DNA of 64,000 bases from Olivibacter domesticus (GTDB lineage Bacteria > Bacteroidota > Bacteroidia > Sphingobacteriales > Sphingobacteriaceae): positions 1,769,662 through 1,833,661 of the forward strand of contig NZ_FOAF01000001.1 of NCBI RefSeq assembly GCF_900109575.1. The letters run 5' to 3'. Under the pieces are notes generated by a model that was not told the origin of the DNA, made no database searches, and saw only the letters and a list, made by a program, of their open reading frames with translations. The position numbers were made by a program, and so were the translations under genes. This document shows, in pieces, positions 4,204 through 24,331 of the stretch (the first letter of the stretch is position 1; each line of letters starts with the position of its first letter).

Positions 4204-4219
4204 TGGATAAAATAATCCA
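4204..4219 (+). promoter_or_regulatory. Inverted-repeat operator shared with the 7651 site
   Basis: TGGATAAAATAATCCA is a 5-bp inverted repeat (TGGAT/ATCCA) with a 6-bp spacer. Including the next four bases, 17 of 20 positions match the sequence at 7651-7670 upstream of the alcohol dehydrogenase gene. Its first base lies exactly 60 bp before the -7-like TACTTTG at 4264-4270, the same spacing as at the other site. It is probably the binding site of the AraC regulator encoded between the two sites; no binding data exist. Confidence 0.6.
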
Positions 4220-4263
4220 TAAATTCAGCAATTTATTCATTTTAAAAAGCCATTAGCAACACG

Positions 4264-4270
4264 TACTTTG
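4264..4270 (+). promoter_or_regulatory. -7-like element of the dioxygenase/GH13 operon
   Basis: TACTTTG resembles TAnnTTTG with one spacer base missing and lies 19 bp before the ATG at 4290. A poor -7 and no clear -33 fit a promoter that needs an activator; the inverted repeat at 4204 is the candidate activator site. Confidence 0.45.
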
Positions 4271-4289
4271 CTATCTAACTTAACAGATT

Positions 4290-5114
4290 ATGAACGAAAT
4301 CCATCAATACATTCCAAATCTTGATGATATAAGAACAGTATCGCAGGAACAAGTAGACGAATTCCAAAAGAACGGCCATACGATTACACTCGGGCTTTTA
4401 TCAACAGATGAAGCAGTAGCATACCAAAAGATTATTAGCGGGGCTGCAGATAAGTTTAACCAAGAGAAACGTAAGTTAAATGAGAGAGATACTTACGGAA
4501 AGGCATTTTTACAAATCATGAACTTATGGCGTGTAAATGAGCAGGTAAAACGTTTCGTATTAGCTAAGCGCTTTGCCAGCATTGCTGCTGCTTTGCTACA
4601 AGTAGAAAATGTACGGTTGTATCATGATCAAGCATTGTTCAAAGAGCCAGGGGGCGGGCCAACTCCTTGGCATCAAGACCAGAATTATTGGCCGCTTGAC
4701 ACAGAAAAGACGGTGACTATGTGGATGCCGCTAGTGGACATCCCGAACCCGGATATGGGAATGCTTACTTTCGCTTCTGGATCACATCTTAAAGGCAATG
4801 TTTTTGATTTTGTTATTTCTGATGAATCAGATGACGCATTTGATCAGTATGTAAGGGATCATCGTCTTCCTATTGTACGACCATCAGCAATGAAGGCAGG
4901 CGACGCCACATGGCATACCGGATACACCATTCATAATGCACCCGGCAATAATTATAATGCCATGCGTGAAGTCATGACCGTAATTTATTTTGCTGATGGC
5001 GCTAAAATTTCTGCGCCTAAACATAAGTATCAAGAGAATGACTTAAAGCAATGGCTTGGAAGCAAGGAGCCCGGAAGTTTGGCTGATTCTGATTTGAACC
5101 CGTTATTGCTTTAA
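4290..5114 (+). CDS. Phytanoyl-CoA dioxygenase family Fe(II)/2-oxoglutarate oxygenase
   Basis: 274 aa, full length for PhyH-like oxygenases. The HxD iron ligands are H128 and D130 (PTPWHQDQNYW); the distal His is probably H215 in TGYTIHNAPGN, and R226 is the likely 2-oxoglutarate carboxylate ligand. The family hydroxylates diverse small molecules with O2 and 2-oxoglutarate and can O- or N-demethylate through a hemiacetal. No signal peptide is visible, so it is cytoplasmic. It is followed after 23 bp by a secreted GH13 gene, almost certainly in one operon, so the substrate is probably derived from a glycoside. The actual substrate is unknown. Confidence 0.88.
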   Translation: MNEIHQYIPNLDDIRTVSQEQVDEFQKNGHTITLGLLSTDEAVAYQKIISGAADKFNQEKRKLNERDTYGKAFLQIMNLWRVNEQVKRFVLAKRFASIAAALLQVENVRLYHDQALFKEPGGGPTPWHQDQNYWPLDTEKTVTMWMPLVDIPNPDMGMLTFASGSHLKGNVFDFVISDESDDAFDQYVRDHRLPIVRPSAMKAGDATWHTGYTIHNAPGNNYNAMREVMTVIYFADGAKISAPKHKYQENDLKQWLGSKEPGSLADSDLNPLLL

Positions 5115-5137
5115 TAAATGATTTAATTTATCAATTA

Positions 5138-6736
5138 ATGAAAAAAATTGCAGCTACCCTTCTTTGGCTTTTTTTGTTATCAGTTTTAACGAATACCAAA
5201 AGCCACGCGCAGCAAAAAGAGGTAAAAGATGAGGTAATTTATCATGTATTTCAACGTAGCTTCTATGATAGTAATGGAGATTCGCATGGTGATTTAAATG
5301 GCTTAAAAGAGAAGCTAAACTATCTACAGAACTTAGGTGTTACTTCTATACTAATGACTCCTCTTTACGAATCTGTTTATTATCATAATTATTATGCAAT
5401 TGATTTTAAAAAAATAGATCCGAAATATGGTACCCTTGCGGATTATCTAAATTTAGTAAAAGAAGTTCACAAACGGGGAATGAAAATTTACATGGATATG
5501 GAGACCCAATATGTTACCGAGGATCATTTATGGTGGCGTGATTCTTTTGGTAATCCGGGCTCTGCATATAGTAACTATATCCTCTATGACGATTCAGCTC
5601 AACTTAAACCCTCATCTATTGTTTTCAACCTAACGGAACTACTTGGTTACGATGGTACTACGAGGAAAATAACTACAGTAAACCTCAACAATAAAGAAGT
5701 ACAGAATTATAACTTACAGTTATTTAAATATTGGCTAGATCCGAATGGAGATGGCAACTTCGACGATGGTGTCGATGGGTTCAGGCTTGATCATATGATG
5801 GATGATTTAGACAATAAAGGTATTTTAATAAACTTGTTCAAAACCTTCTGGGTTCCACTATTAACGAATCTTAAGTCGGTTAACCCACATATTAAATTTA
5901 TGGCTGAACAAGCAGATTGGCTCTCCTATGGAATCGACTACCTTAAACAAGGTGGTGTGGATGCTGTTTTTGCGTTTAGAATACAACAGGCTGTTCGCAC
6001 ATTGGATAAGAAAAAAATCGAAGCTTTCGCTGATACTACATTTAGTAATACACCAAAAGGCAAGGAACAAATTATGTTTATAGAAAACCATGATATTCCT
6101 CGGTTTGCAACTGTTGTTAAGGAAAATCCCGGAAAGCTGCGCGTTGGCGCTGCGATTAATTTGCTCATTGGTGGTATACCCTCTATTTACTATGGTCAAG
6201 AAATAGGTATGTTAGGGAATGCTCAATTTGGAAAATATGGTAAAATAATTACAGATGCAAATGAAATACCTTCTCGTGAGGCTTTCGAATGGTATAAGGA
6301 GATTAACGGACGGGGCATGGCCTTCTGGTATAAAGGGACAGGACCGTGGTGGGACGAATCAAATGTAAAACCAAACGATGGTATTTCCTTTGAAGAGCAA
6401 GAACAAGACAAACGTTCGTTATGGAATTTTTATAAATCTTTATTAGTTCTTAGAAAGAGAAATCACGCTTTGATAAATGGCGACTATATGAGCTTTCCAA
6501 ATTCAAATAGTCAAGTAATATCCTTTATACGTGCTTCGGAAGATGGCCATGCGCTGGTAGTAGTAAATCTATCTGATCAAGCGCAGCATGTTCGCTTGAA
6601 CTTTTCGTCTGTCAATAAACAGTTAGTTGTTAATCAACTGGAAAACTTGTTTGGTGGAATGAAAGGCAATAGCGTTAATGAAAATGAAATAACACTGCAA
6701 TTAAAGAACTATGACGTACAGGTATTTAAATTCTAA
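5138..6736 (+). CDS. Secreted alpha-amylase-family (GH13) hydrolase, atypical
   Basis: 532 aa. A signal peptide (about residues 1-24, cut after SHA) precedes a GH13 barrel. The catalytic triad is visible: nucleophile D218 (GFRLDHM), acid/base E257 (FMAEQAD) and D319 (FIENHD). A short beta-sandwich C domain ends the chain. Conserved region I, normally DxxxNH, reads DMETQY at 120-125, so the subsite -1 His is missing, and region II lacks the usual Lys-His. This suggests a changed specificity. It is cotranscribed behind the PhyH-like oxygenase. Its stop overlaps that of the convergent araC gene. It is distinct from the canonical neopullulanase at 15630-17471. Confidence 0.87.
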   Translation: MKKIAATLLWLFLLSVLTNTKSHAQQKEVKDEVIYHVFQRSFYDSNGDSHGDLNGLKEKLNYLQNLGVTSILMTPLYESVYYHNYYAIDFKKIDPKYGTLADYLNLVKEVHKRGMKIYMDMETQYVTEDHLWWRDSFGNPGSAYSNYILYDDSAQLKPSSIVFNLTELLGYDGTTRKITTVNLNNKEVQNYNLQLFKYWLDPNGDGNFDDGVDGFRLDHMMDDLDNKGILINLFKTFWVPLLTNLKSVNPHIKFMAEQADWLSYGIDYLKQGGVDAVFAFRIQQAVRTLDKKKIEAFADTTFSNTPKGKEQIMFIENHDIPRFATVVKENPGKLRVGAAINLLIGGIPSIYYGQEIGMLGNAQFGKYGKIITDANEIPSREAFEWYKEINGRGMAFWYKGTGPWWDESNVKPNDGISFEEQEQDKRSLWNFYKSLLVLRKRNHALINGDYMSFPNSNSQVISFIRASEDGHALVVVNLSDQAQHVRLNFSSVNKQLVVNQLENLFGGMKGNSVNENEITLQLKNYDVQVFKF

Positions 6737-7608
6737 GATGCATGATTTATTTGTTCAACAAATTTAGTTCTATAATTCAGCGGGCTTATATGCATACGGT
6801 GTTTAAATTGCCTATAAAAATGAGACACATCGCTAAATCCGCTTTCGAATGCAATTTCAGAAATCGCTTTATCTGTCTGAATTAATTGATTAGTCGCATA
6901 ATTTAAACGGTAATTTATTACTGTTTCTATGAACGTTTTTCTCGTTGTTTTTTTGAAATACTTACAAAATGCATTGGGGGTCATATGCGCTATGGAAGAG
7001 GCCTCCTGCAGAGACAGCTGCTTTCTGAAGTTTTCAACTATATACGCCATTACTTGGTTGATTCTATGCTGATCATTACTGGCGACACGGTTAATAGAAT
7101 CGCTCGAAGCTAGTATCGTGAAGTCCTGCATAGATGACAATTGCTCCAATATTTCTAAAAAGGTTATAATTCCTTTCAAGCCGTTTGTTGTTTTAAGCTT
7201 AAATAAATGTTTTTTTATCACATTGTTTAATCTGCCATGGAAACTTATTCCATGAGACGCTTTCATCAATAATCTTTTTATTTCCGATAATTCGGCTTTT
7301 TCCATAAAATCCGCGCTTATCGAATTCATGGTAAACTGTAGGACTGTAGCTCTTGCCGCTTCGTTTTCTGTCACATAAGTATCTAATTTCCAACAATGAG
7401 GTAAATTTGGACCTAACAACACCAGATCACCTTTTTTAAAATCAGACATATGGCTCCCCACATAGCGCTTTCCAATACCGGCGGTTATATATGTTAATTC
7501 ATATTCTGGATGGTAATGATAAGGTGCATCAAACGCTTCTTTACCGAATTCCCGTAATAAGAAGGTGCCATTACTTTGCTGCAATACTTCTACTGAGGCC
7601 TTTAACAT
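6733..7608 (-). CDS. AraC-family regulator with N-terminal cupin
   Basis: 291 aa. The N-terminal cupin-like sensor (about residues 20-80) contains the HYHPEYELTYI and GDLVLLGPNLPHCW motifs. The C-terminal double helix-turn-helix spans about residues 190-285, with the signature IAFESGFSDVSHFYRQFKHRMHISPLNYR. It lies between the oxygenase/GH13 arm and the divergent alcohol dehydrogenase/esterase/transporter arm. Near-identical inverted repeats precede both arms, so it is very probably their local activator, responding to a sugar-like ligand. One of these repeats covers the -33 region of its own promoter, which suggests autoregulation. Confidence 0.92.
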   Translation of the reverse strand: MLKASVEVLQQSNGTFLLREFGKEAFDAPYHYHPEYELTYITAGIGKRYVGSHMSDFKKGDLVLLGPNLPHCWKLDTYVTENEAARATVLQFTMNSISADFMEKAELSEIKRLLMKASHGISFHGRLNNVIKKHLFKLKTTNGLKGIITFLEILEQLSSMQDFTILASSDSINRVASNDQHRINQVMAYIVENFRKQLSLQEASSIAHMTPNAFCKYFKKTTRKTFIETVINYRLNYATNQLIQTDKAISEIAFESGFSDVSHFYRQFKHRMHISPLNYRTKFVEQINHAS

Positions 7609-7630
7609 AATTGGTTTTTTAGTTCACATT

Positions 7631-7638
7631 CAAAGATA
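7631..7638 (-). promoter_or_regulatory. -7 box of the araC-type gene
   Basis: TATCTTTG on the minus strand matches TAnnTTTG exactly and lies 22 bp before the ATG at 7608. No good -33 TTG is present. The inverted repeat at 7651-7666 occupies that position. Confidence 0.6.
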
Positions 7639-7650
7639 AAACATCTCCAA

Positions 7651-7666
7651 TGGATAAAAAAGTCCA
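7651..7666 (+). promoter_or_regulatory. Inverted-repeat operator shared with the 4204 site
   Basis: TGGATAAAAAAGTCCA (TGGA/TCCA arms), followed by TTAA, agrees with the 4204 site at 17 of 20 positions. The distance to the forward -7-like element TAATTTG (7711-7717) is 60 bp, identical to the first site. It sits in the araC/alcohol dehydrogenase divergent region and could control both directions. Confidence 0.6.
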
Positions 7667-7710
7667 TTAACAAATTAATTTTAACCACCTTGGTATGAAA
7701 ACAATTGGCG

Positions 7711-7717
7711 TAATTTG
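7711..7717 (+). promoter_or_regulatory. -7-like element of the alcohol dehydrogenase operon
   Basis: TAATTTG is a one-base-short version of TAnnTTTG, like TACTTTG at 4264. It implies a leader of about 110 nt before the alcohol dehydrogenase ATG. The leader holds an 18-codon open frame and a short hairpin (CAGGT/ACCTG at 7765-7778). Confidence 0.4.
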
Positions 7718-7741
7718 AGCGTAACGAGACCAATATATCTT

Positions 7742-7798
7742 ATGAAGAAGACAAGCAACTTAAGCAGGTTGTTACCTGATTCTTTTATCACCGACTAA
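7742..7798 (+). CDS. Possible 18-aa leader peptide
   Basis: An ATG-initiated micro-ORF in the alcohol dehydrogenase leader reads MKKTSNLSRLLPDSFITD and ends in TAA, 35 bp before the dehydrogenase start. It begins about 18 nt after the predicted transcript start. I do not recognise it. It could be a regulatory upstream ORF, a small peptide product or chance. The only support is position and an intact frame. Confidence 0.25.
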   Translation: MKKTSNLSRLLPDSFITD

Positions 7799-7833
7799 AG
7801 CACGTCTATGTTAATTTAAACTATCTAATAAAT

Positions 7834-8952
7834 ATGTCGATTTACAGTAAGGCCGCCATTACAAATGGACAAGGTACCTTCTCAATAGAAACCATAGAAA
7901 TAGGTGATCCTGCACCGGATGAAATAATTGTCCGTATGAAAGCAGCTGGAGTATGTCACACAGATTTCGATTCTTTAAATTGGGGAACTCCCTTGGTGCT
8001 AGGCCATGAGGGGGCAGGTATTGTTGAAAAAGTGGGACAGGCTATCAATAACTTTTCTATTGGCGACAAGGTAATACTTAATTGGGCCATCCCATGCGGT
8101 CATTGTTATCAATGTGCCGAAGGAAATTTACATATATGTGAGAACCATTCACCTGTTTGCGGACCACCAGGTTTCCAGTCGTCTGGCCATGCTTTACCTT
8201 TCAATACGCTATGGCAAAATAAACCAATAGCGAGATCCTTCCACTTAGGCACTTTGTCTGAATATGTCATCGTAAAGGAGGCAGCTGTTGTAAAAAACGA
8301 CTCTATAAATATGTCATTTGCTGCAGCAAGTATAATAGGCTGTGGGATTATGACCGGCTACGGTTCTGTTGTAAATGCCGCTAAGGTCAAACCAGCCTCT
8401 TCTGTTGTGGTATTAGGTACAGGAGGTGTAGGCCTGAGCGTCGTTCAAAGCGCTAAAATAGCAGGGGCTGCGATGATTATTGCAATAGATGTAAATGAAA
8501 ACAGGTTGAATTTGGCTAAAAGGTTCGGCGCGACACATACTCTCTTAACGAATAAGGATGATAAGGGGCTCCTCAAAGCTGCTCTTGAAGTTAAGAAGAT
8601 GACCGGCAACAGGGGTGCCGACTATGCCTTTGAATGCACAGCTGTCCCTGAACTTGGGGCGGCCCCATTGGCGATGGTGCGCAATGCAGGCACTGCTGTA
8701 CAAGTAAGCGGGATTGAGCAATCCATTACTTTTGATATGAATCTATTTGAATGGGATAAAATTTATATTAATCCGCTTTATGGGAAATGCAAACCTCATA
8801 TTGATTTCCCAAAGATTATGCAACTCTATGATTCGGGACAATTACTATTGGAAGAATTAATCTCTCGAACTTATTCGATAGAAAACTTATCGCAAGCATT
8901 TAAGGATATGCTAACAGGAAAAAATGCCAAAGGTGTAATTATTTTCAATTAA
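7834..8952 (+). CDS. Zinc-dependent medium-chain alcohol dehydrogenase
   Basis: 372 aa, class III-like medium-chain dehydrogenase. Catalytic zinc ligands are visible in GVCHTDFDS (Cys), LGHEGAG (His-Glu) and IIGCGIMTGYG (Cys). The structural zinc site is CGHCYQCAEGNLHIC. The Rossmann motif is VVLGTGGVGLSVVQ with a downstream acidic IAIDVNENR, which points to NAD(H). Class III relatives include thiol-dependent formaldehyde dehydrogenases. It leads an operon with an esterase (4-bp gap) and an MFS carrier (9-bp gap). The true alcohol or aldehyde substrate is not evident from sequence. Confidence 0.9.
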   Translation: MSIYSKAAITNGQGTFSIETIEIGDPAPDEIIVRMKAAGVCHTDFDSLNWGTPLVLGHEGAGIVEKVGQAINNFSIGDKVILNWAIPCGHCYQCAEGNLHICENHSPVCGPPGFQSSGHALPFNTLWQNKPIARSFHLGTLSEYVIVKEAAVVKNDSINMSFAAASIIGCGIMTGYGSVVNAAKVKPASSVVVLGTGGVGLSVVQSAKIAGAAMIIAIDVNENRLNLAKRFGATHTLLTNKDDKGLLKAALEVKKMTGNRGADYAFECTAVPELGAAPLAMVRNAGTAVQVSGIEQSITFDMNLFEWDKIYINPLYGKCKPHIDFPKIMQLYDSGQLLLEELISRTYSIENLSQAFKDMLTGKNAKGVIIFN

Positions 8953-8956
8953 ATAT

Positions 8957-9757
8957 ATGTCGTCTTTCAGAACAATTGAAATATCTAACCCATTGTTTGA
9001 ACAAGCAAACCTTCGTTTTGTAACGGTTAAATCGTCCAATTTAAAGGGTAGAGGGGATATCTCTGTATTTATACCGCCGAAAACAGAGCAATCTGAAAAT
9101 TTACCGCTTGTATTACTTCTTCATGGTGTGTATGGCAGTGCTTGGAGTTGGCCTCTCGGAGCTGGCGTTCACTTGCAAGCGCTAAAGATGATTCAAGAAA
9201 GTCTATTACCCAATATGATAATAGCCATGCCATCCGATGGCTTATGGGGAGACGGATCGGCTTTCTTATCACACCATAAAAGAAATTTTGAGCGATGGAT
9301 TGTTGATGATGTTCCCAAGGTACTCACCGAGGTCATACCACAGGTAAGTGATATTTCTCCGCTTTTCATTGGTGGATTATCTATGGGCGGGTACGGAGCG
9401 CTGCGCTTAGCCTGTTTATATCCCAACCGCTTTAAAGGTGTATCTGCACATTCTTCGATAACAGCATTTGAGCAAATGCGATTATTTGTAGAAGAAGATC
9501 TTAAAAAGTTCAATGTTACCGCCGCGCAATATCCAAATATTATTGATGCCATGGTCCTTAATAAGGATAAACTTCCCCCCATTCGGTTTGACTGCGGAAA
9601 AGCAGATTTACTTATTGCTGATAACAGAGAATTACACAATCGGATGCTTCAATATAATATCCATCACCAATATTTTGAATATCCAGGAGGACACGAATGG
9701 CCATACTGGACGCAGCATATCGAAAAATCGTTGCTTTTTTTTGCCGCGCTCTTATAG
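8957..9757 (+). CDS. Alpha/beta-hydrolase, putative esterase family
   Basis: 266 aa, esterase D / enterochelin-esterase-like fold. The oxyanion region is LLLHGVYGSAWSW, the nucleophile elbow is GGLSMGGYGAL (Ser), and the C-terminal catalytic His is in YPGGHEWPYW. The likely Asp lies in FDCGKADLL. The family includes S-formylglutathione hydrolases and carbohydrate esterases. The alcohol dehydrogenase-esterase pairing resembles thiol-dependent formaldehyde oxidation operons, but sugar ester hydrolysis is equally possible. No signal peptide is visible. It is the middle gene of a tight three-gene operon. Confidence 0.85.
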   Translation: MSSFRTIEISNPLFEQANLRFVTVKSSNLKGRGDISVFIPPKTEQSENLPLVLLLHGVYGSAWSWPLGAGVHLQALKMIQESLLPNMIIAMPSDGLWGDGSAFLSHHKRNFERWIVDDVPKVLTEVIPQVSDISPLFIGGLSMGGYGALRLACLYPNRFKGVSAHSSITAFEQMRLFVEEDLKKFNVTAAQYPNIIDAMVLNKDKLPPIRFDCGKADLLIADNRELHNRMLQYNIHHQYFEYPGGHEWPYWTQHIEKSLLFFAALL

Positions 9758-9766
9758 TAGAAAATT

Positions 9767-11134
9767 ATGTTCATGAGATCTTATAAAAAAACGAAACCAA
9801 ACCTTTCTTTGCTCCAATTATGGAATATGAGCTTTGGCTTTTTTGGAATACAGTTTGGTTTTGCGTTACAAACCGGAAATGCCTCTCGCATTTTACAAAC
9901 TTTTGGCGCTAATATAGAGCATCTTTCATTGTTCTGGCTCGCAGCGCCTTTGGGGGGAATGCTCATACAGCCGCTAATAGGATACTATAGTGATCGCACA
10001 TGGACACGTTTAGGCAGGAGGCGACCGTATTTTCTTGTTGGAGCATTATTCGCATCTTTGGCAATTGTATTAATGCCCAATGCATCATTGTTTGTTCAAT
10101 TCTTCCCTCCTCTTCTCATTGGCGCAGGGTTACTTCTTATGATGGATATTTCTATAAATGTGGCGATGGAACCTTTCCGTGCGTTGGTGGCTGACAACCT
10201 CCCCTCTTCTCAACATACAATTGGATTCTCCATTCAAACGTTTCTTATCGGTTTGGGAGCAGTGTTAGGCTCATTTCTACCCTATATACTGGCCGAATAT
10301 TTTGATGTTGCTAAAACAGCTGCGATTGGAACCGTGCCTGATAATGTCATTTATTCTTTTTATGTAGGTGCCTTTCTTTTGCTTTCAACTATATTGTGGA
10401 CAATTTGTACAACGAAGGAATATACTCCAAACGAGCGGGAACAATTCGTAGAAGGTGGCAAACTTCCAAAACATGAAAGTGTTTTAAGAATATTATCAGA
10501 TTTTATACATATGCCAAAGGCTATGTTCCAGTTAGGTGTAGTACAATTTTTTTCGTGGTTTGCACTTTTCTCCATGTGGGTTTTCGCTACTCCCGCGATC
10601 GCAGAACATATATACAATTTGCCTGCTAATGATACTTCATCAGAAACATATGCTAATGCTGGAAATTGGGTTGGTATTCTTTTTGGTGTCTATAATGGAA
10701 TAGCTGCTTGTTATGCACTCGTTATACCTAAAATAGCACAGCTAACCAGTAGAAAAATAGCACATGCTATATCTTTATGTGCAGGCGGTATAGGCTTAGT
10801 TTCTATATTTTTTATACAAAGCCCAATAGTACTTATATATTCTATGATTGGGGTTGGAATCGCATGGGGTAGCATTTTAGCAACCCCTTATGCTATTTTA
10901 GCAAGTTTACTTCCTGCGAATAAAATAGGCGTATACATGGGAATATTCAATTTCTTCATTACCCTGCCGCAGCTCATTAATGGCTTTTTAGGAGGGTATA
11001 TACTAAAATCATTATTTAACGGAAAGGCCATTTATGCCATCGTCATGGCTGGGATCCTATTCTTTATAAGTGCCATTTCGGTTTTTTTTGTAAATGACGA
11101 GCAGCAGAATCATAAATCAGCTAATGTAAAATAA
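9767..11134 (+). CDS. MFS sugar transporter, SLC45/maltose-type
   Basis: 455 aa with about 12 membrane segments. The MFS loop signature appears as GYYSDRTWTRLGRRRPYFL after TM2, with conserved FALQTGNASRILQTFGA near the N-terminus. Bacteroidota relatives of this SLC45-like group sit in maltose loci. It is clearly paralogous to the convergent transporter at 11139-12470 but belongs to the AraC-linked operon, so it probably carries a different glycoside. Two possible ATG starts lie two codons apart (9767 or 9773). Confidence 0.9.
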   Translation: MFMRSYKKTKPNLSLLQLWNMSFGFFGIQFGFALQTGNASRILQTFGANIEHLSLFWLAAPLGGMLIQPLIGYYSDRTWTRLGRRRPYFLVGALFASLAIVLMPNASLFVQFFPPLLIGAGLLLMMDISINVAMEPFRALVADNLPSSQHTIGFSIQTFLIGLGAVLGSFLPYILAEYFDVAKTAAIGTVPDNVIYSFYVGAFLLLSTILWTICTTKEYTPNEREQFVEGGKLPKHESVLRILSDFIHMPKAMFQLGVVQFFSWFALFSMWVFATPAIAEHIYNLPANDTSSETYANAGNWVGILFGVYNGIAACYALVIPKIAQLTSRKIAHAISLCAGGIGLVSIFFIQSPIVLIYSMIGVGIAWGSILATPYAILASLLPANKIGVYMGIFNFFITLPQLINGFLGGYILKSLFNGKAIYAIVMAGILFFISAISVFFVNDEQQNHKSANVK

Positions 11135-11138
11135 GTTG

Positions 11139-12470
11139 TCAGTTGGTTTTAACCTTTAAAACTGCGATCGCGGCAAACAACAAGAAAGCACCAGCTAATA
11201 CAAGAGCGTAAATTGCTTGCCCACCAAAAATATATTTGACCATATAACCGCCAAGCAATCCATTTATAATTTGCGGAAAAGTGATAAAAAAGTTAAAAAT
11301 CCCCATGTAGACCCCCATCTTTCTTGCTGGTAAGCTTGCCGATAGTATAGCATATGGCATCGATAAGATACTCCCCCATGCCATACCTATACCCACCATT
11401 GGCAAAATCAAGAAATAAGCATTCGAAATGAAGAATACAGACATCAACGATACACCACCGCAAACCAAGGAGATAGCATGTGTTTTTTGCTGGCCGTATC
11501 GTTTTGCAAGAACAGGTAAAGCAAGTGCATAAATAGCCGACACCGCATTATATATCCCAAACAATACACCTATCCAATTAGCCGCATCAGCGAAACTTGT
11601 AGAGGAAGAATCTCCCTGTTTTATTCCGTAAATGTGTTCTGCTACTGCAGGAGTGGTAAACACCCACATAGAGAATAAAGCAAACCAAGAAAAAAACTGC
11701 ACTAGCCCAAGCTGCTTCATGGCTTTAGGCATATTTTTAAAATCGGAAATAATTGAGGCCAAACCTTTCAACGCCTTTTCTGAAGTTTCTTTTTCTGAAG
11801 AAAAAGACGACAATTCATCTGGTGAATACTCTCGCGTACGGATCACTGTCCACATGATGGTTAAAATCAGAACCGTTGCTCCTATATAAAATGAAAAGAT
11901 TACATTTTCAGGCACATGACCTTTCTCAGCAATTTTTGAAGCCCCAAGAAATTCAGCTAAAATGTAAGGTAACCAAGATCCTGCAACAGCACCGATACCT
12001 ATTAAAAATGTTTGTATAGAGAAGCCCTTGCTACGCTGACTATTTGGCAGATTATCTGCTACTAAAGCCCGGAAGGGTTCCATTGTTACATTTATGGATG
12101 CATCCATTATCATCAACATGCCTGCACCTATCATAAGAGGTGGTAGAACCGTTGTCAACACCGCAGCGTTAGGCATTAAAACCAGTGCTAAGGAAGTTAA
12201 AATTGCTCCCGTTAGAAAAAAAGGTCGCCGTCGACCCATTTTTGTCCACGTTCGATCACTGTAGTAACCTATAATTGGCTGAACAATCATACCTGTGAGT
12301 GGAGCGGCTAACCAAAACAATGATAGGTGTTCAACGTCAGCACCGAATGTTTGAAGAATACGAGAAGCATTTCCATTTTGTAGCGCGAAACCAATTTGGA
12401 TCCCAAGAAATCCTAGACTCATATTAATAATTTGTACAGTATTTAAAAGAGGTTTTGGTTTATTGGTCAT
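11139..12470 (-). CDS. MFS maltose transporter, SLC45-like
   Basis: 443 aa, about 12 membrane segments, with GYYSDRTWTKMGRRRPFFL after TM2. It is the last gene of the susC-led maltodextrin operon and directly follows the GH65 phosphorylase gene (60-bp gap). This fits inner-membrane import of maltose released in the periplasm for intracellular phosphorolysis. It is tail-to-tail with its paralogue, 4 bp apart. Confidence 0.9.
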   Translation of the reverse strand: MTNKPKPLLNTVQIINMSLGFLGIQIGFALQNGNASRILQTFGADVEHLSLFWLAAPLTGMIVQPIIGYYSDRTWTKMGRRRPFFLTGAILTSLALVLMPNAAVLTTVLPPLMIGAGMLMIMDASINVTMEPFRALVADNLPNSQRSKGFSIQTFLIGIGAVAGSWLPYILAEFLGASKIAEKGHVPENVIFSFYIGATVLILTIMWTVIRTREYSPDELSSFSSEKETSEKALKGLASIISDFKNMPKAMKQLGLVQFFSWFALFSMWVFTTPAVAEHIYGIKQGDSSSTSFADAANWIGVLFGIYNAVSAIYALALPVLAKRYGQQKTHAISLVCGGVSLMSVFFISNAYFLILPMVGIGMAWGSILSMPYAILSASLPARKMGVYMGIFNFFITFPQIINGLLGGYMVKYIFGGQAIYALVLAGAFLLFAAIAVLKVKTN

Positions 12471-12530
12471 AATTGATTTCTCGTCTTAAATTTATGAAGA
12501 TTCTTAATAACGACAACAATTTTAAAGCAC

Positions 12531-14849
12531 TTAGTTTTTACCAATTAAGCTACACTTATACGTTCCTTTTGCTGCCAATTTTATACTTATTCCCTTTAGC
12601 ACAATGTCCAGTTCTTCATTGGAGTTATTGTCAACCAAAACTTCCTCTTTTGTGACTTTAAAGCGAATTATCTTATTCCTAAATCGGATGTTAAATGCGT
12701 ATGATATCCATTTTTCTGGAATGAAGGGACTAAAGTGGAGTTTTCCATCACGAACGCGCATACCCGCAAAACCTTCTACAACGGTCATCCAACTTCCAGC
12801 CATAGAAGTAATATGCAAGCCATCTTCTGTGTCGTTGTTATAATCATCAAGGTCCAGTCTCGCTGTTCTAAGATAAAATTCATATGCCCGCTTTTCATCT
12901 CCAAGCCTAGCGGCGAGAATAGCATGTACACAAGGTGATAAAGAGCTTTCATGAACCGTACGCGCTTCATAGAAGTCATAATTTTTACGAATAACATCCT
13001 CACTATAGTTCTCCTCAAAAAAATAAATCCCTTGCAATACATCTGCCTGTTTGATAAAACATGATCGGAGTATGCGGTCCCAACTCCATTTTTGATTCAG
13101 CGGTCGTTCAGAGGCCGGTAGGTTTTTTACCAAGATTTGTTCCTTGTCCATATAACCATCCTGCTGTAAGAATATTCCATGCTCTTTATCCTCAGGAAAG
13201 TACATATTCTGTATAATATGGTTCCATTTCCCGGTTTCTTCTAAATTAAAGTTCAATTTAATACTAATGTCGCTATACCGATTAGCATTGGATTGTTGAA
13301 CTAGACCTATAGTGTCTATTGTATATTGCATACACCAAACGGCCATCGTATTAGTGTACCAATTATTATTAACGTTATTTTCGTATTCGTTTGGACCTGT
13401 TACCCCTAAAATAACATATTGATTTTTTGCGTCACTCCAACTTACCCGTTGCGACCAAAACCTCGCAATTCCTATCAATACCTCTAATCCGTATTGTTCC
13501 AGATAGTTATTATCTCCCGTGTATCTAACATAATTGAAAATAGCATAAGCTATCGCGCCATTACGATGGAGCTCTTCAAAAGTAATTTCCCATTCATTAT
13601 GGCATTCTGTTCCGTTTATAGTAACCATCGGATATAAAGCTGCGCCATTTGAAAAGCCTAACGCCTGCGCATTTTCATATGCTTTTTCAAGATGCTTGTA
13701 TCGATAGATCAAAAGGTTTCTGGCCACTTGCTGATCGGCAGTAGCCAAATAAAAAGGTAAACAATAGGCTTCCGTATCCCAATAAGTAACTCCACCATAT
13801 TTCTCTCCGGTAAAACCCTTAGGCCCGATATTTAGTCGTGCGTCTTCGCCCGTGTACGTTTGGTACAATTGAAAAATATTAAATCGAATAGCTTGTTGGG
13901 CGGCTACATCACCTTCAATAAGGATATCACTTTCCTTCCATTTATTTGCCCAGGCCTCGGACTGTTCATATTTAAGATGTTTGAATCCTTTTTTAAAGAC
14001 ACTTTCTAGTATTTTTATTGCATTGCTTTCAAGAAGTTCTTTTGGATGATTTTCCGATGAAAGATTAGCGGCATATTTGTAAATAACTAAAGATTGCCCC
14101 TTCTCAAGTTTCACATTACTTTCTTTACTTATGAACTTCTCCCTTTCTATTAGTTGCTCATTTAATTCTGCTTGTTGTTCATCTATATAAATCTCATATT
14201 GCATGGCAGTAGTCACCCAAAAAGCGGTTCTTTTTGTTTCAAGTGTTAATACAGCTCCGCTTTTAATATCTTTTTTTGCAACTTCTTTCCAAAACCTCTC
14301 GTCATAATTAGCATCTTCATTTCTTACATCCCCGTCGATATAGACACCTAGTTTAACGACTATATTATTATTTAAGGGCCTAATTTCATATCGTAAAGCA
14401 CCAACCTCATCATCAACAATGCTGCAAAATCGAGTGGCATTTACCTGTATCAACGCACCAGAATCAAATTCGGCCGTAAATGAACGCTTTAAATACCCTT
14501 CTTGCATATTTAAGACACGCCGAAATTCACTTACTTTTACAACATTTAAGTCGAGTAATTCTCCGTTAACTTCAATGTTCAATCCTATCCAGTTTGCGGC
14601 ATTAATTACCTTGTCCGAAAATTCAGGGTAACCATTTTTCCACCATCCCACACGCGTTTTATCAGGATGATATATACCGGCAACATATGATCCCTGCAAC
14701 ATATCACCTGTGTATTTCTCTTCAAAATTGGCACGTTGCCCCATTCTACCGTTACCAATACTAAAAATACTTTCTGAGATTTTGCTTAACGATGGATCGA
14801 AGCCTTCTTCGATTATATTCCATTCATCCTTAACAATATAGTCTTTCAT
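12531..14849 (-). CDS. Glycoside hydrolase family 65 phosphorylase, probable maltose phosphorylase
   Basis: 772 aa, full length for GH65. It would cleave maltose with phosphate to glucose and beta-glucose-1-phosphate. An N-terminal beta-sandwich (to about residue 280) precedes the (alpha/alpha)6 barrel. Conserved blocks include YGGVTYWDTEAYCLPFY, CHNEWEITFEELHRNGAIAYA and GVTGPNEYENN, in which E488 is the likely general acid; HESSLSPCVHAILAA comes later. The gene is cytoplasmic (no signal) and sits between pgmB and the maltose carrier, which supports maltose over trehalose or kojibiose as substrate. Confidence 0.92.
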   Translation of the reverse strand: MKDYIVKDEWNIIEEGFDPSLSKISESIFSIGNGRMGQRANFEEKYTGDMLQGSYVAGIYHPDKTRVGWWKNGYPEFSDKVINAANWIGLNIEVNGELLDLNVVKVSEFRRVLNMQEGYLKRSFTAEFDSGALIQVNATRFCSIVDDEVGALRYEIRPLNNNIVVKLGVYIDGDVRNEDANYDERFWKEVAKKDIKSGAVLTLETKRTAFWVTTAMQYEIYIDEQQAELNEQLIEREKFISKESNVKLEKGQSLVIYKYAANLSSENHPKELLESNAIKILESVFKKGFKHLKYEQSEAWANKWKESDILIEGDVAAQQAIRFNIFQLYQTYTGEDARLNIGPKGFTGEKYGGVTYWDTEAYCLPFYLATADQQVARNLLIYRYKHLEKAYENAQALGFSNGAALYPMVTINGTECHNEWEITFEELHRNGAIAYAIFNYVRYTGDNNYLEQYGLEVLIGIARFWSQRVSWSDAKNQYVILGVTGPNEYENNVNNNWYTNTMAVWCMQYTIDTIGLVQQSNANRYSDISIKLNFNLEETGKWNHIIQNMYFPEDKEHGIFLQQDGYMDKEQILVKNLPASERPLNQKWSWDRILRSCFIKQADVLQGIYFFEENYSEDVIRKNYDFYEARTVHESSLSPCVHAILAARLGDEKRAYEFYLRTARLDLDDYNNDTEDGLHITSMAGSWMTVVEGFAGMRVRDGKLHFSPFIPEKWISYAFNIRFRNKIIRFKVTKEEVLVDNNSNEELDIVLKGISIKLAAKGTYKCSLIGKN

Positions 14850-14906
14850 TCTTGTAGTTCGTTGCTCGTTTCTTACTATTTATTTGTTACGCTGTGCTTT
14901 AATTTT

Positions 14907-15581
14907 TTAGTCTTCTAACAATTCATTTAAATTATTGATCAGACAATTGGCTCCAGTCAGGCCTGAATATTTACCTATCCCAATAACATACATTCCAGCT
15001 GCCCGTGCAGCATCTATACCTGCCTGTGCGTCTTCCAGTACAAGGCATTTAGCCGAATCAATGTTTAAAGATTTCGCGCCTTTAAGAAATACTTCAGGAG
15101 CTGGTTTAGAGGCTGTAACCGTATTACCGTCAACTATTACATCAAAAAAGTTAACAATGCCTGTTCTCTCAAGAATAAGGAGTGCGTTCTTGCTCGCCGA
15201 TCCCAGCGCTATCTTGTAATTGTTTTCTTTTAAACAAGTCAGTAATTCTATTGCTCCCGGTAGCGTGTCTCCAGGTTTCATTTTGTTCACTAGATCTAAG
15301 TACCAACTATTTTTTTGATTGGCTAATAGCTCTTGCTCGCGAGCTGTTTTACTAATACCACCCCATGCTAAAATTAATTCAAGTGAGCGAATTCGGCTTA
15401 CTCCCTTTAACTGCTCATTTTGCTTTTCAGTAAAGTCAAAGCCCAGGGAATTAGCTAATTGTTTCCAGGCTTGGAAATGGAATATTGCAGTATCTACAAG
15501 CACTCCATCTAGATCAAAAATTACTCCTTTAACTGTATCAAATACAGGAAATTGTTCTATAAGTAAAATAGGCCTCTTCAT
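14907..15581 (-). CDS. pgmB: Beta-phosphoglucomutase
   Basis: 224 aa, HAD superfamily subclass I with a helical cap. Motif 1 is FDLDGVLVDT (nucleophile D23, acid/base D25), motif 2 is GSASKN, then KPAPEVF and the metal motif LEDAQAGIDAARAAGM. It isomerises beta-glucose-1-phosphate, made by the adjacent GH65 enzyme, to glucose-6-phosphate. The pgmB-GH65 pairing is a classical maltose phosphorylase arrangement. Confidence 0.95.
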   Translation of the reverse strand: MKRPILLIEQFPVFDTVKGVIFDLDGVLVDTAIFHFQAWKQLANSLGFDFTEKQNEQLKGVSRIRSLELILAWGGISKTAREQELLANQKNSWYLDLVNKMKPGDTLPGAIELLTCLKENNYKIALGSASKNALLILERTGIVNFFDVIVDGNTVTASKPAPEVFLKGAKSLNIDSAKCLVLEDAQAGIDAARAAGMYVIGIGKYSGLTGANCLINNLNELLED

Positions 15582-15629
15582 ATAATATTTGTAATTCTGT
15601 CTAAAAAATTTACGCTGTTGTAAAGGGGG

Positions 15630-17471
15630 CTATTGTAGCTCAAGAACAACTGTTGTTTTTGGTTTAAGTGAAAATTCACGTATGTCAGTATACTGTTTAC
15701 CACTAATAATATCCAGCGCTTTCTGGCGACCTTTTAAAATCTCCTGGAAACGTTCTGTTTCCAGTTTAATACTTTTATCTTCGGTATTCATAATCACCAT
15801 AACCGTCTTCTGATCATCATACCTAAAATACACATATATACCACCCTCAGGGACAAATTGCATCATACGGCCTGTTTGTAACACCGCATTGTTCTTTCGA
15901 TAATTGCCTAATCTTTTCATAAAATTGAACATATCGTTTTCTACATCACTCCTACCTTGAGCGGTGAATTTATTTTGCTCATCTGTATCCCATCCACCAG
16001 CAAAATCATCCCGCACTTTTCCATCAGGGTTAGAAAAATTCTTCATTAATATTTCCGCTCCATAGTAAATCTGAGGAATTCCGCGAGTTGTTAACAGCCA
16101 AGCCATCGCAGATTTGTATTTATCAATATCTTCTCCTACCACAGAGAAAAATCTACTCATATCATGATTATCTAAAAACACTACGTTTCTCAAAGGATTT
16201 TGATATACAAAATCAGTCGCTAACGTGGTGTATAATTTATTTACGCCACCTGTCCAATCCATTTTGTTGTTTAGTGCATCACTAATAGCATACTGAAGTT
16301 GAAAATCAGTTACCCCTTGTAGACGTGTATCCAGTTGCTGGTTGATTGTCTTTCCTCCTGTAAAATATGCTTGGTTGGCCACACCATGTACCCAGGTCTC
16401 CCCATAATAGGTAAACGAAGGATATTCATTTATCAAAGCCTTCCCCCATTTAGCCATAAAATCTAAATCATTATAAGGATAGGTGTCAATCCTAAAACCA
16501 TCTACCCCCGCATATTCAATCCACCATATATGGCTTTGTATAATATAATTTTGCACATAGGGATTACTTTCATTCATATCTGGCATAGAAGGAACAAACC
16601 AACCATCCGTCATTTTTTTACGATCACTTGTAGAAGCATAGGGATCATAAATCGTTTGATCTTTATAGGTAGTGTTAGTATACCCCTTCCATTGATGAAC
16701 CCAGTCGGGCATAGGTTTATCTAATATGGTCCAATGATTAAGACCTACGTGATTAGGCACCACATCATGAATAAGTTTCATTTTTCTTTTGTGAAGTTCT
16801 GCACCTAACTTTCGATAGTCTTCATTTCTACCGAAACGAGGATCTATCTGATAGTTCTCGGTGTTGGCATAACCGTGATAGGATGCTTGTTCCATATCGT
16901 TCGTTAATACAGGTGTCATCCATAAAGCCGTCACACCCAGATCATGCAAATAATCAAGTTTATTGATTACTCCTTGCAGATCCCCTCCGTGTCTGTAATA
17001 CATGGAGTCACGGTTCACCCCTCTTTCTCGCATTCCTTCTACTACATCATTCTTTGCATTCCCATTTGCAAAACGGTCGGGCATGAGGAGATAAATAAAA
17101 TCCTGACTATTAACTCCCTGTGCTTTCACTTGATGTTGATCTCTTGATTTTAATTCGTAGCTGTAAGGAGCTAGCTCTTTACCAGCGTTCTCCAATGTAA
17201 TCTGAAATTTACCGGGTTTAGTGCTTGGCTCAATAACAAGATCTAGAAAGAGATAATTTGGATTTTCCACCTTATTAACTTTTACCAATCTTACACCTGG
17301 ATAATTTATTTTCACGTCACTATTGGCAATAGCCTTTCCATAAACAATAAGCTGTAGATTAGGGTTATGCATACCGATCCACCAGTTGATGGGCTCAATA
17401 CGCTTAATTTGAGCATATATATTTGGTAACCAGACTAAACTTAGCAGAAATAAAAGGGTCAACTTCTTCAT
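15630..17471 (-). CDS. susA: Secreted GH13 neopullulanase/cyclomaltodextrinase (SusA-like)
   Basis: 613 aa. The signal peptide (MKKLTLLFLLSLVWLPNIYA) is followed by an N-terminal Ig-like domain (about 25-110) and a GH13 barrel. The four conserved regions are canonical: DVVPNH (236-241), GFRIDTYPY with nucleophile D329, YGETWVH with acid E358, and FLDNHD with D437. It probably hydrolyses maltodextrins or pullulan in the periplasm after SusCD uptake. Fourth gene in the operon, after susE. The symbol follows the Bacteroides thetaiotaomicron analogy. Confidence 0.92.
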   Translation of the reverse strand: MKKLTLLFLLSLVWLPNIYAQIKRIEPINWWIGMHNPNLQLIVYGKAIANSDVKINYPGVRLVKVNKVENPNYLFLDLVIEPSTKPGKFQITLENAGKELAPYSYELKSRDQHQVKAQGVNSQDFIYLLMPDRFANGNAKNDVVEGMRERGVNRDSMYYRHGGDLQGVINKLDYLHDLGVTALWMTPVLTNDMEQASYHGYANTENYQIDPRFGRNEDYRKLGAELHKRKMKLIHDVVPNHVGLNHWTILDKPMPDWVHQWKGYTNTTYKDQTIYDPYASTSDRKKMTDGWFVPSMPDMNESNPYVQNYIIQSHIWWIEYAGVDGFRIDTYPYNDLDFMAKWGKALINEYPSFTYYGETWVHGVANQAYFTGGKTINQQLDTRLQGVTDFQLQYAISDALNNKMDWTGGVNKLYTTLATDFVYQNPLRNVVFLDNHDMSRFFSVVGEDIDKYKSAMAWLLTTRGIPQIYYGAEILMKNFSNPDGKVRDDFAGGWDTDEQNKFTAQGRSDVENDMFNFMKRLGNYRKNNAVLQTGRMMQFVPEGGIYVYFRYDDQKTVMVIMNTEDKSIKLETERFQEILKGRQKALDIISGKQYTDIREFSLKPKTTVVLELQ

Positions 17472-17515
17472 TAGATCTATGATGTGTTAAAATTATAATA
17501 TCACTATTGTGTTAG

Positions 17516-18280
17516 CTAGTTTGCTAGCAGCTCGAACTCAATTGTGTTGTCATTTGTATTAACCGTAATTCTATAATTACCCGCACCAGGCGACTTAAAG
17601 TTTCCGCTAGCATCAAGGCTGATCTTCCCACTTCCGGCATCTCCATAAGAGATGTCCCAAGTTGGTGCGGGGGTAATTTTAAATTCTGAATCGGCTTCAG
17701 GAAAATTGATTTCTCCAATATAAATGCCATTGCTCATTGCAGACTGCAGTCTTAATGCCGTAACTGGATCCCATCCCTGATAAGCGCCTGGAACATACAG
17801 GTAGCTCGCTAATTCATAAGGGCTGGCCGTCAACGTAATCACATTACTGTATAAAGGTGCATTTGGTGCTAAACCAGCATTTAACCGTATATCTACCTTA
17901 CTTGTATCATGGGGCAAGAAACCTAGGTCAAGAAAGGCCTTGTTTAGTTCTTGAACACTTAATGCCAAAGATTTCGATTTTGTCGTTTTTGTTATCATCC
18001 CGGATCTAAAATCATCTCCCGACCTACCTATTTGGATAGTATACGTTAGAATATCTGTACTTACCGAAGGGTCTGACCATTTATAATCAAGTGTATCCCA
18101 GCTAAAGTTTACAGCTTCTTCTTCCGCTTCATCTTTAGTTAGACTTACGGTAGTATTAGATGAGACTAGTACAGGAATATTTTTCGCAGTAATAACTACC
18201 TTCTGTTCATCTTTTTTACATGAGAACAATGTAATTGATATTACACTTATCATGCTTATCATTTTTATAATCGATTTCAT
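17516..18280 (-). CDS. susE: SusE-like outer-membrane lipoprotein
   Basis: 254 aa from the preferred ATG at 18280. A longer frame to 18316 would overlap susD and hide the lipoprotein signal. The signal is MKSIIKMISMISVISITLFSC with a lipobox Cys. A SusE-type N-terminal Ig domain (about 40-140) is followed by one starch-binding-like beta-sandwich containing YLYVPGAYQGWDP, typical of SusE/SusF. It is a surface maltodextrin-binding accessory to the upstream SusC/SusD pair. Confidence 0.88.
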   Translation of the reverse strand: MKSIIKMISMISVISITLFSCKKDEQKVVITAKNIPVLVSSNTTVSLTKDEAEEEAVNFSWDTLDYKWSDPSVSTDILTYTIQIGRSGDDFRSGMITKTTKSKSLALSVQELNKAFLDLGFLPHDTSKVDIRLNAGLAPNAPLYSNVITLTASPYELASYLYVPGAYQGWDPVTALRLQSAMSNGIYIGEINFPEADSEFKITPAPTWDISYGDAGSGKISLDASGNFKSPGAGNYRITVNTNDNTIEFELLAN

Positions 18281-18302
18281 TTTCAAGGTTTTATTGGTTA
18301 AA

Positions 18303-19895
18303 CTAATATCCTGCATTCTGAGTCAAATTTGGATTTGAGATGACATCTAATGCTGGCAATGGAAAAATAGTTTTAAAATTTTGAACCCCAGCTCCCGATT
18401 GAGTTCCGCCCTTAAAAGGCCATACATAATTGGCATCCGTATATTTTCCAAAACGGATTAAATCAGTTCTACGATAAGCTTCCCAATAAAATTCTCGCGC
18501 ACGCTCATCAAGAATAAAATCTAAAGAAAGGTTATTGATATTACCGGATGAGTTACCGTAAGCTCGTTCTCGTATTTTATTTACATATTCTAAGGCTGTT
18601 GTACTACTTCCCCCTTCGCCGCCTCTTAGTACAGCCTCTGCATAAATTAAATAAGCATCAGCTAAACGAAATAAAGGGAAGTCTACAGAGCATTGTGTGC
18701 CGTCATTTGATGGTGCAGGCGCACCATTTACATCTACGTTTCTGAACTTTGTAACGGCCAATCCTTGCGCAAAGGTCGCCACATCATTGATTACCGGGTT
18801 TGTGCCAAAGAACATAGCTCTTTTGTCGGTATTACCGGAGATATCGCTGAATTTACCAGGCAAGGTCGATTTACTTCTATTACCTCCCCAACCACCACCT
18901 GGAATGCCAAAAGAAGCGGGATTCATCTGACCGTTGGTAGAAGAATTAATCAAAAACGTTGTGCCCCCAAAATTTTGCGTTTTAATCGCATCATAATTGA
19001 TACTCAAAATGATCTCATCGCGGTTTTGATCATTATCTGCTAAGAATAGATGCCTATAATTGGATTTTAACATATAGCCAGAGTTGATCACCTTACTGGC
19101 GTATTCAATTGCCTGTGTATATTTACTATTTCCACTTCCTAAATAAACTTCGGCATTTAAATATAATCTCGCTAATAGCATCCATGATGCTGCCTTGTCT
19201 ACCCTACCGTACTCATTTTGCTGAGGGTCAGTTAAACCTCCTTCAATCGCCAATAGCTCTGATTCAATGTAATTGAAAAGGTCTGCCCTGCTTATTTGAC
19301 GCGGTGGTGTTTTACTGATAGGATCTTCTTCTGTAACAAAAGGTGGATTTCCAAAAAGATCCATCAGTACCCAATATTGATAAGCTCTTAAAAACCGTGC
19401 TTCTAAACTATACACCCTTATCGCCTCCGCATCTGCACCTTCGATACCGCGACCTGCTAGTTTGTCATCCATACTTTCACGGATGAAATCATTTGCTACC
19501 GTAATTTGGTAGAGAGAACGGGCATATAGACCTTGAAGCAGCACATTGTTAGAATTCCAGGTCATAAAATTCAATTCAGGTATACCTGGATCTTGCCATG
19601 CACATAGCGCTTCGTCGCTTGCCAATTCCTGGATATTCCAATACAAGCGTAAAAAATCTGAAGTACCCTGATCGATACCGCCAATATCTCCAATTGTAGC
19701 GGAAGTACCACCACCGCCAGTCAGCGCAAAGCTTGAATAAACCTTTGCTAGCGATTGCTTATAACCCTGTGGTGTAGTATAAACTACATCTGCTGTTATA
19801 TCATTGGTTGGTTTTAAATCTAAATCTTTATGGCATGAAGTTAATATTCCTGCTAACAGTGCCATCATTATATATATATTAGATATCCTTTTCAT
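18303..19895 (-). CDS. susD: SusD/RagB-family nutrient-binding lipoprotein
   Basis: 530 aa. Lipobox signal MKRISNIYIMMALLAGILTSC; the mature lipoprotein begins CHKDLDLKPTND. TPR-like helices carry the SusD landmarks ARFLRAYQYWVLMDLFGNPPF and, near the C-terminus, LDFILDERAREFYWEAYRRTDLIRFGKY. It forms the lid on the SusC transporter at the outer membrane and binds maltodextrin. The gap from susC is 19 bp. Confidence 0.96.
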   Translation of the reverse strand: MKRISNIYIMMALLAGILTSCHKDLDLKPTNDITADVVYTTPQGYKQSLAKVYSSFALTGGGGTSATIGDIGGIDQGTSDFLRLYWNIQELASDEALCAWQDPGIPELNFMTWNSNNVLLQGLYARSLYQITVANDFIRESMDDKLAGRGIEGADAEAIRVYSLEARFLRAYQYWVLMDLFGNPPFVTEEDPISKTPPRQISRADLFNYIESELLAIEGGLTDPQQNEYGRVDKAASWMLLARLYLNAEVYLGSGNSKYTQAIEYASKVINSGYMLKSNYRHLFLADNDQNRDEIILSINYDAIKTQNFGGTTFLINSSTNGQMNPASFGIPGGGWGGNRSKSTLPGKFSDISGNTDKRAMFFGTNPVINDVATFAQGLAVTKFRNVDVNGAPAPSNDGTQCSVDFPLFRLADAYLIYAEAVLRGGEGGSSTTALEYVNKIRERAYGNSSGNINNLSLDFILDERAREFYWEAYRRTDLIRFGKYTDANYVWPFKGGTQSGAGVQNFKTIFPLPALDVISNPNLTQNAGY

Positions 19896-19914
19896 AATTA
19901 TTTCTTTGGCCTAA

Positions 19915-22893: not shown

Positions 22894-23053
22894 TGTAAAT
22901 TGGTTAGCTGTTTGGTTAGAAATATTAATTGGTTATTTTTTATCTTTCATTGTTTAATCAGTGATTCATAGGTTTCGCGTATTAACAGATTATCTCTCTT
23001 TTCTTCAGAGCTAAGGTTATGAATATAGTTAGTTGTTAAGTCAGCATCGTTAC

Positions 23054-23067
23054 CGGGAACGTTCCCG
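23054..23067. promoter_or_regulatory. LacI-type operator O1 upstream of susC
   Basis: CGGGAACGTTCCCG is a perfect 14-bp palindrome with the central CG typical of LacI/GalR operators. It is one of two copies whose centres are exactly 30 bp apart, between lacI and susC. The regulator encoded next to it (23185-24204) is the obvious candidate ligand-responsive repressor or activator. Confidence 0.85.
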
Positions 23068-23084
23068 AATTATTATTCAGAACT

Positions 23085-23097
23085 GGGAACGTTCCCG
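23085..23097. promoter_or_regulatory. LacI-type operator O2 upstream of susC
   Basis: GGGAACGTTCCCG contains the perfect 12-bp palindrome GGGAACGTTCCC and lies 30 bp centre-to-centre from O1, close to three helical turns. Two dimers could bind the same DNA face. Confidence 0.85.
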
Positions 23098-23139
23098 ATA
23101 ATTGATGTAAAAGTATTTCCTTATGGTGATTTTTCCAAG

Positions 23140-23162
23140 AAAAAAGGTGAAAATATTTCACC
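23140..23162 (-). terminator. Intrinsic terminator of the lacI-type gene
   Basis: On the minus strand, GGTGAAA and TTTCACC form a 7-bp stem with a 3-nt loop (23146-23162), followed by a TTTTTT run. It lies 23 bp after the regulator's stop and separates it from the susC promoter region. Confidence 0.8.
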
Positions 23163-23184
23163 GATCTTAGTGTACTACAAACAC

Positions 23185-24204: not shown

Positions 24205-24222
24205 ACTTCCGTTATTAATATT

Positions 24223-24230
24223 CAAAGGTA
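24223..24230 (-). promoter_or_regulatory. -7 box of the lacI-type gene
   Basis: TACCTTTG on the minus strand matches TAnnTTTG and lies 18 bp before the ATG at 24204. It supports that ATG rather than the longer frame. No clear -33 was found. Confidence 0.6.
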
Positions 24231-24331
24231 AAGACAAAACAGGATATCCAGAAATTACCCCCGTTTTCACTAATTGCCAAACAAAGCAGTAAAATAATCT
24301 GTTGTATACTAAAATCAGTTGAAAAGATCAT

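Follow-up and report, generated by a model that had tools for sequence, protein, structure and literature searches.

A probable tandem-repeat operator shared by two operons beside an AraC-family gene in Olivibacter domesticus

Two closely similar intergenic sites flank a gene for an AraC-family regulator in a 64,000-nucleotide stretch of the Olivibacter domesticus genome (contig NZ_FOAF01000001.1, positions 1,769,662 to 1,833,661 of the forward strand; hereafter the window, with positions counted from its first letter). Each site lies before a predicted operon, the first headed by a PhyH-family dioxygenase gene and the second by an alcohol dehydrogenase (ADH) gene. From the sequence comparisons presented here, we hold it very probable that these sites are operators of the AraC protein encoded between them: tandem repeats from which the regulator would activate both operons and probably limit the expression of araC.

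The two sites, TGGATAAAATAATCCATAAA at 4204-4223 and TGGATAAAAAAGTCCATTAA at 7651-7670, are identical at 17 of 20 bases, and the start of either lies 60 bp before a −7-like box (TACTTTG at 4264, TAATTTG at 7711), as an earlier note on this DNA had described. Their common core is TGGATAAAAWARTCCA. Aligned over 70 columns, the sites share 35 bases, 18 of them in the 50 columns beyond the first 20. The window contains 64 TANTTTG sites on both strands, and among all pairs of 20-mers situated 60 bp upstream of these, 4204/7651 is the sole pair with at least 14 matches. The best pairs in 40 order-1 resampled windows, with a mean of 87 TANTTTG sites each, reached 12-15 matches. Exact matches to TGGATAAAAWARTCCA in the 6.78-Mb genome are confined to these two places, with 4 occurrences at one mismatch and 34 at two. 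No regulator other than AraC was found among the genes between the two sites, which also agrees with the earlier note, and that note's proposal of one site shared by two operons beside a single AraC gene, at a fixed distance to a −7 element, is supported. The features of the region are as follows.

4205-4222 (+): putative distal half-site (I1-like) of the dioxygenase arm, GGATAAAATAATCCATAA, with the conserved columns
4226-4243 (+): putative proximal half-site (I2-like) of the dioxygenase arm, CAGCAATTTATTCATTTT, 21 bp downstream and on the −33 region
4264-4270 (+): −7-like element TACTTTG of the dioxygenase operon; the E. coli pBAD TACTGT is one column away
4290-5114 (+): PhyH-family dioxygenase gene, first in arm 1
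5138-6736 (+): gene for a GH13 alpha-amylase/alpha-glucosidase-like enzyme, arm 1
6733-7608 (−): AraC-family regulator gene; cupin N-terminal domain and AraC-type helix-turn-helix (HTH) C-terminal domain
7631-7638 (−): candidate −7 element of araC, TATCTTTG
7652-7669 (+): GGATAAAAAAGTCCATTA, putative distal half-site for the ADH arm, which also covers the presumed −33 region of araC
7673-7690 (+): AATTAATTTTAACCACCT, a weaker putative proximal half-site for the ADH arm
7711-7717 (+): −7-like element TAATTTG of the ADH operon
7834-8952 (+): zinc ADH gene, first in arm 2
8957-9757 (+): alpha/beta-hydrolase esterase gene, arm 2
9767-11134 (+): MFS (GPH/sucrose-symporter-like) transporter gene, arm 2

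We infer the PhyH-GH13 and ADH-esterase-MFS operons from short gaps and a common strand. Some pattern searches were set aside. An 18-base reading of the core given earlier had no match, the hyphens in that core not being bases. The skeleton RATAANATNNNCCA gave 24 matches in the window at up to one mismatch against 21.3 expected, and a two-half-site skeleton gave 15 matches in the genome against 9 for its reversed control; both were too loose for use.

Conservation was assessed at orthologous promoters. The AraC protein was sought in 251 genomes of the family, where 32 had a match of at least 241 bits and the next genome stood at 209 bits. Of 33 AraC loci taken with flanks of up to 8 kb, 31 contained PhyH. 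The 31 orthologous PhyH promoters and that of the window were aligned in 32 rows anchored on the best motif match; relative to the start codon of PhyH, this match lies at −79 to −101. Each of columns 2, 5, 6, 8, 9 and 13-15, which belong to the stretch used for anchoring, has the same base in 31 or more of the 32 promoters. The overall column pattern is GGATAAAATAATCCATAA, then CCA near column 25, TCATTTTTT from column 33 and TTACTTTG from column 59. The earlier note had named loss of the motif or of its 60-bp spacing before orthologous operons as one outcome that would refute it, and both proved to be conserved: the site lies 60 bp from the −7 box in 22 promoters and 61 bp in 6, with no box found in the remaining 4. 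TACTTTG and TAATTTG in the window are one base shorter than TAnnTTTG, the −7 consensus of Bacteroidetes sigma-A promoters, and the orthologues carry TTACTTTG, TAACTTTG or TAAATTTG.

A sequence-only model (R1) was then trained on 26 of the 31 PhyH promoters, leaving out the window, four poor matches (L086, L087, L088, L093) and a near copy of L083 (L084). It scores the two sites in the window at 37.6 and 20.2 bits, with the next match at 9.3. In a scan of the genome itself, in which 150 of 8584 first-look candidates were scored, the two sites rank first and second; the third (C3:160189, 19.4 bits) lies within an AsnC-type gene and was taken as chance. We also fetched 80 named loci by AraC alignment, chiefly from Mucilaginibacter (a genus of the Sphingobacteriaceae), with Pedobacter, Parapedobacter, Albibacterium, Sphingobacterium, Chitinophaga, Dyadobacter and others. 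PhyH was present in the stretch examined in 77 of these, and 73 of the 77 have a model match (E ≤ 1) just before it. With 19 loci excluded for a match identical to a training row, 54 of 58 were still matched, and 47 of these matches reached at least 20 bits; Dyadobacter gave the weakest, at 9.7-13.5 bits. These results bear on the possibility that the two sites are a chance likeness of AT-rich intergenic DNA. In its favour, the 16-mer TGGATAAAAWARTCCA, with up to 3 mismatches allowed, is no commoner in the genome (639 matches) than its reversed control (693), so the short motif by itself is no evidence; its position and conservation are. Resampling gave at most 15 matches and the motif is conserved in those 54 of 58 loci outside the training rows, which leaves chance a vanishingly small probability.

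The same model finds further sites in relatives. Eleven named loci have a secondary-arm match (one at a gene other than PhyH) ahead of GH13, 4 have one ahead of the esterase and L114 has one ahead of ADH; in L061, from a relative in the same genus, a site before ADH can be seen by eye. Two Pedobacter loci have a match on the dehydrogenase side of araC (L167, 33.0 bits; L172, 18.9 bits). In G140, a genome with AraC and without a PhyH match, a 33-bit match stands about 110 bp before a gene for a TonB-dependent receptor (SusC-like), which is followed by a SusD-family gene. Going by these matches, the predicted regulon has more than two arms in relatives.

The form of the operator departs from what was proposed earlier. 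Both copies in the window read TGGAY-N6-RTCCA, and the earlier note accordingly described an inverted repeat. A true inverted repeat would be bound by a symmetric dimer, either LacI-like or of AraC as an inverted pair, and E. coli RhaR is indeed reported to use half-sites in inverted orientation (PMC3870299). Across the 32 promoters, though, the full 5+5 dyad is complete in only 3, with the pair 0-15 complementary in 9 and the pair 5-10 in none; complementary pairs average 4.2 of 8 in the primary arms (the PhyH promoters) and 3.3 of 8 in the secondary arms. Conservation is asymmetric: it continues into TAA (columns 16-18) and from there to a second element at +21. When column profiles are compared at lags of 8-44, lag 21 comes out on top in both the 32 primary arms (z 2.6) and 19 secondary arms (z 3.4), and within-sequence identity in the secondary arms is also highest at lag 21 (8.16 of 18). 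The secondary arms, of which 23 were aligned, were mostly chosen by model matches, so their columns lean to the model; the lag test omitted L143 and the minus strand of L124 as copies or near copies, L178 as weak, and L061, which was not carried over. Their skeleton reads RATAA-n-AT-n3-CCA and then, 21 bp on, TAA-n-TT-n3-CATT. An inverted repeat thus appears very unlikely, and by these profiles the predicted operator is a tandem direct repeat with a 21-bp period. The site looks palindromic by coincidence, its distal half-site having a left box (GGAT) that is complementary to its right box (ATCC).

These observations suggest a mechanism. Each operator would have two half-sites: a strong distal one with the consensus GGATAAAATAATCCATAA, whose start is 60 bp from the −7 element, and a weaker proximal one that lies 21 bp closer to the promoter, on the −33 region. 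Binding head-to-tail, an AraC dimer would bring its proximal subunit up against sigma-A RNA polymerase and so activate the PhyH-GH13 and ADH-esterase-MFS operons, whose products probably import an alpha-glucoside-like compound and process it by oxidation. PMC9723704 places the −7 box TAnnTTTG at −12 to −5. With the box ending at −5, transcription is predicted to start near 4275 and 7722 (+). Counted from these starts, the distal half-sites would span roughly −70 to −53 and the proximal half-sites roughly −49 to −32, a position suited to an activator and reaching the −33 region. On this geometry, shared activation of the two operons is likely.

The second operator probably has another role. With TATCTTTG at 7638-7631 as its −7 element, araC would start near 7626 (−), and the distal half-site of site 2 would span roughly −26 to −43 relative to that start, covering the araC −33 region. 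Because the second operator covers the presumed araC core promoter, the same binding event probably limits araC expression, and repression of araC by its own product is plausible. The autoregulation suggested earlier therefore stands in part: the site should overlap the araC core promoter, and the geometry argues for repression instead of activation. The arrangement recurs in relatives, araC and PhyH being adjacent and divergent in 68 of the 77 named loci. In 63 of these 68, the araC start codon is 38-39 bases from the site, as compared with 42 in the window, and the spacing to the −7 box is 60 in 47, 61 in 5 and other in 4, with no TTTG in 12. The expected cover of the araC core promoter also lends something to the idea that AraC mainly represses, acting from these sites on the two operons as well as on itself. 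We consider this very unlikely, given that at both target operons the site lies upstream of and on the −33 region and leaves the −7 free, the position of the activator sites at E. coli pBAD.

Which regulator reads the motif is a separate matter. Several regulators are common in sugar loci, and −7 boxes are general in the phylum, so another regulator, such as the LacI-type protein encoded at 23185-24270, or a general promoter feature might account for the motif. We regard this as highly unlikely. The motif accompanies AraC across different neighbourhoods, and it precedes the SusC-like gene of G140, where AraC occurs with no PhyH match. Conversely, PhyH was found at E ≤ 1e-70 in 34 genomes, 3 of them without a strong AraC match (G143, G011 and G027). 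In G011 and G027, where PhyH has other flanking genes, no AraC nearby and its upstream DNA present, no motif match was found, so that the motif is absent in 2 of 2 such cases. In G143, where 255 bp of contig precede PhyH, the motif is present. AraC-less PhyH orthologues with other genes beside them and the operator absent stand at L226 7302-8117 and L227 7334-9273; they act as natural negative controls and may give a clue to the role of the dioxygenase.

Assignment of the motif to AraC is further addressed by co-occurrence over the 251 genomes. A model match at E ≤ 1e-4 occurs in 29 of the 32 genomes with AraC (at least 241 bits) and in 2 of the 219 others (G143 and G122), a count that speaks for specificity more than sensitivity, because the training promoters were drawn from these same genomes, which renders the positive side largely circular, and because 20 candidates were scored per genome under stricter filters. 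These restrictions weigh against our interpretation, as do several other points. Three genomes with AraC (G111, G044 and G001) have no match at E ≤ 1e-4. Anchoring on the motif biases columns 0-18 of the promoter alignment towards it, columns 24-41 and 59-66 being unused for anchoring. At 20.2 bits, site 2 is close to the 19.4 bits of the match inside the AsnC-type gene. The 58 test loci are not training rows, yet they come mostly from related Mucilaginibacter, and among the 77 named PhyH loci no model match precedes PhyH in L152, L180, L186 and L190 (similar stretches are visible by eye in L152 and L180). For araC itself, a perfect TAnnTTTG is present in 7 of the 68 divergent loci. Finally, within-sequence identity in the primary arms is best at lag 12 (7.41 of 18), with lag 21 second (7.06); a repeat of one turn (lags 11-12) is present too, as would be expected with two boxes per half-site one helical turn apart.

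The proposed operator resembles known ones. We compared it with the araC-araB intergenic region of E. coli, in which the stretches named I1, I2, −35 and −10 lie. Tandem half-sites occur there at the same places: TCCATAA of I1 occupies the same columns 12-18, I2 has ACC in columns 33-35 as does site 2 of the window, the pBAD TACTGT begins at column 59 as against column 60 for the −7 box of the window, and araC is divergent from a neighbouring target in both. The systems differ in the promoter element (−10 there, −7 here) and in their target genes, and the regulators are only distantly related. On induction, E. coli AraC is reported to occupy I1 and I2, which are adjacent operators (PMC4486848). 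Predicted operators of the AraC-type RhaR of Bacteroides are direct repeats with a 21-bp periodicity (PMC3870299), and those of AraC-type hybrid two-component systems in Bacteroides are direct repeats averaging 21 bp (PMC3878776). Both share with the present case the 21-bp direct repeats, AraC-type DNA-binding domains and the phylum; they control other genes, and the hybrids are sensor-kinase fusions whereas the regulator here is a one-component cupin-AraC protein. E. coli RhaS and RhaR are likewise AraC-family carbohydrate activators with 17-bp half-sites, but the inverted half-sites of RhaR are reported to be separated by a 17-bp spacer (PMC3870299). A −33 TTTG motif is reported in B. fragilis and, in the same paper, as not found in F. 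johnsoniae (PMC7366714).

Among the papers listed by a literature search, none treats an AraC-PhyH regulon to judge by its title. The regulon thus appears to be undescribed, and its operator is of a known kind, the araI type, with 21-bp direct repeats already reported in Bacteroides. An unstudied Bacteroidetes regulator thereby gains a defined candidate operator and a testable mode of action, together with a predicted regulon of dioxygenase, GH13 enzyme, alcohol dehydrogenase, esterase, sugar transporter and, in one relative, SusC/D. Half-sites 21 bp apart and 60 bp to the −7 could serve as a ruler for finding other AraC targets in the phylum. A more tentative idea, which we lean slightly against, is that AraC-type activators in Bacteroidetes keep the distance from half-site to promoter box seen in E. 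coli (60 versus 59 bp) despite a −7 in place of a −10 element. If true, the contact between AraC dimer and RNA polymerase would be set by the polymerase and common across phyla, and operators and transcription starts of many uncharacterised Bacteroidetes AraC regulators could be predicted from one geometry.

The C-terminal HTH of AraC scores above the cut-off with Pfam PF12833 (E 6.4e-20) and PF00165 (E 1.1e-9), as does the N-terminal sensor with PF07883 and PF02311 (cupin/AraC_binding). Against the curated arabinose AraC model PRK10572 (NCBIfam), the protein reaches 49.8 bits, below the cut-off of 208. The nearest solved relatives by sequence are SnoK, SnoN, MysH and EvdO2 for PhyH; alpha-amylases, alpha-glucosidases and trehalose synthases for GH13; and feruloyl and other esterases for the esterase.

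Some smaller observations concern the arms and their surroundings. The predicted ADH leader is about 112 nt long (window 7722-7834), and the distance from the site to the ADH start is 183 bp in the window versus 109 bp in L061. Adjoining arm 2 on the minus strand (window 11139-24270) are MFS, GH65, SusC/SusD-like and LacI-type genes, parts of which are kept beside the AraC cluster in several relatives; the model scan of the window gave no strong site upstream of the SusC-like gene of this locus. Elsewhere in the same genome, a weak match of 16.5-16.8 bits at G000:C10:2025053-2025116 (L235 5054-5117) lies about 40 bp before the longest open reading frame (ORF) of a TonB-dependent receptor (SusC-like) gene and may possibly mark a further arm. 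For a second, paralogous AraC of G052 (L090 7986-10160), 45% identical, a separate 21-bit site immediately precedes a divergent GH5-like gene, which suggests that operator type goes with regulator subfamily. In the Mucilaginibacter locus L068 (2800-4963), the PhyH/AraC pair adjoins genes for an FGE-sulfatase/DinB_2 protein and a histidine-specific methyltransferase, a pair that resembles EgtB/EgtD of ergothioneine synthesis, and ORFs of similar look are found in L063 and L072.

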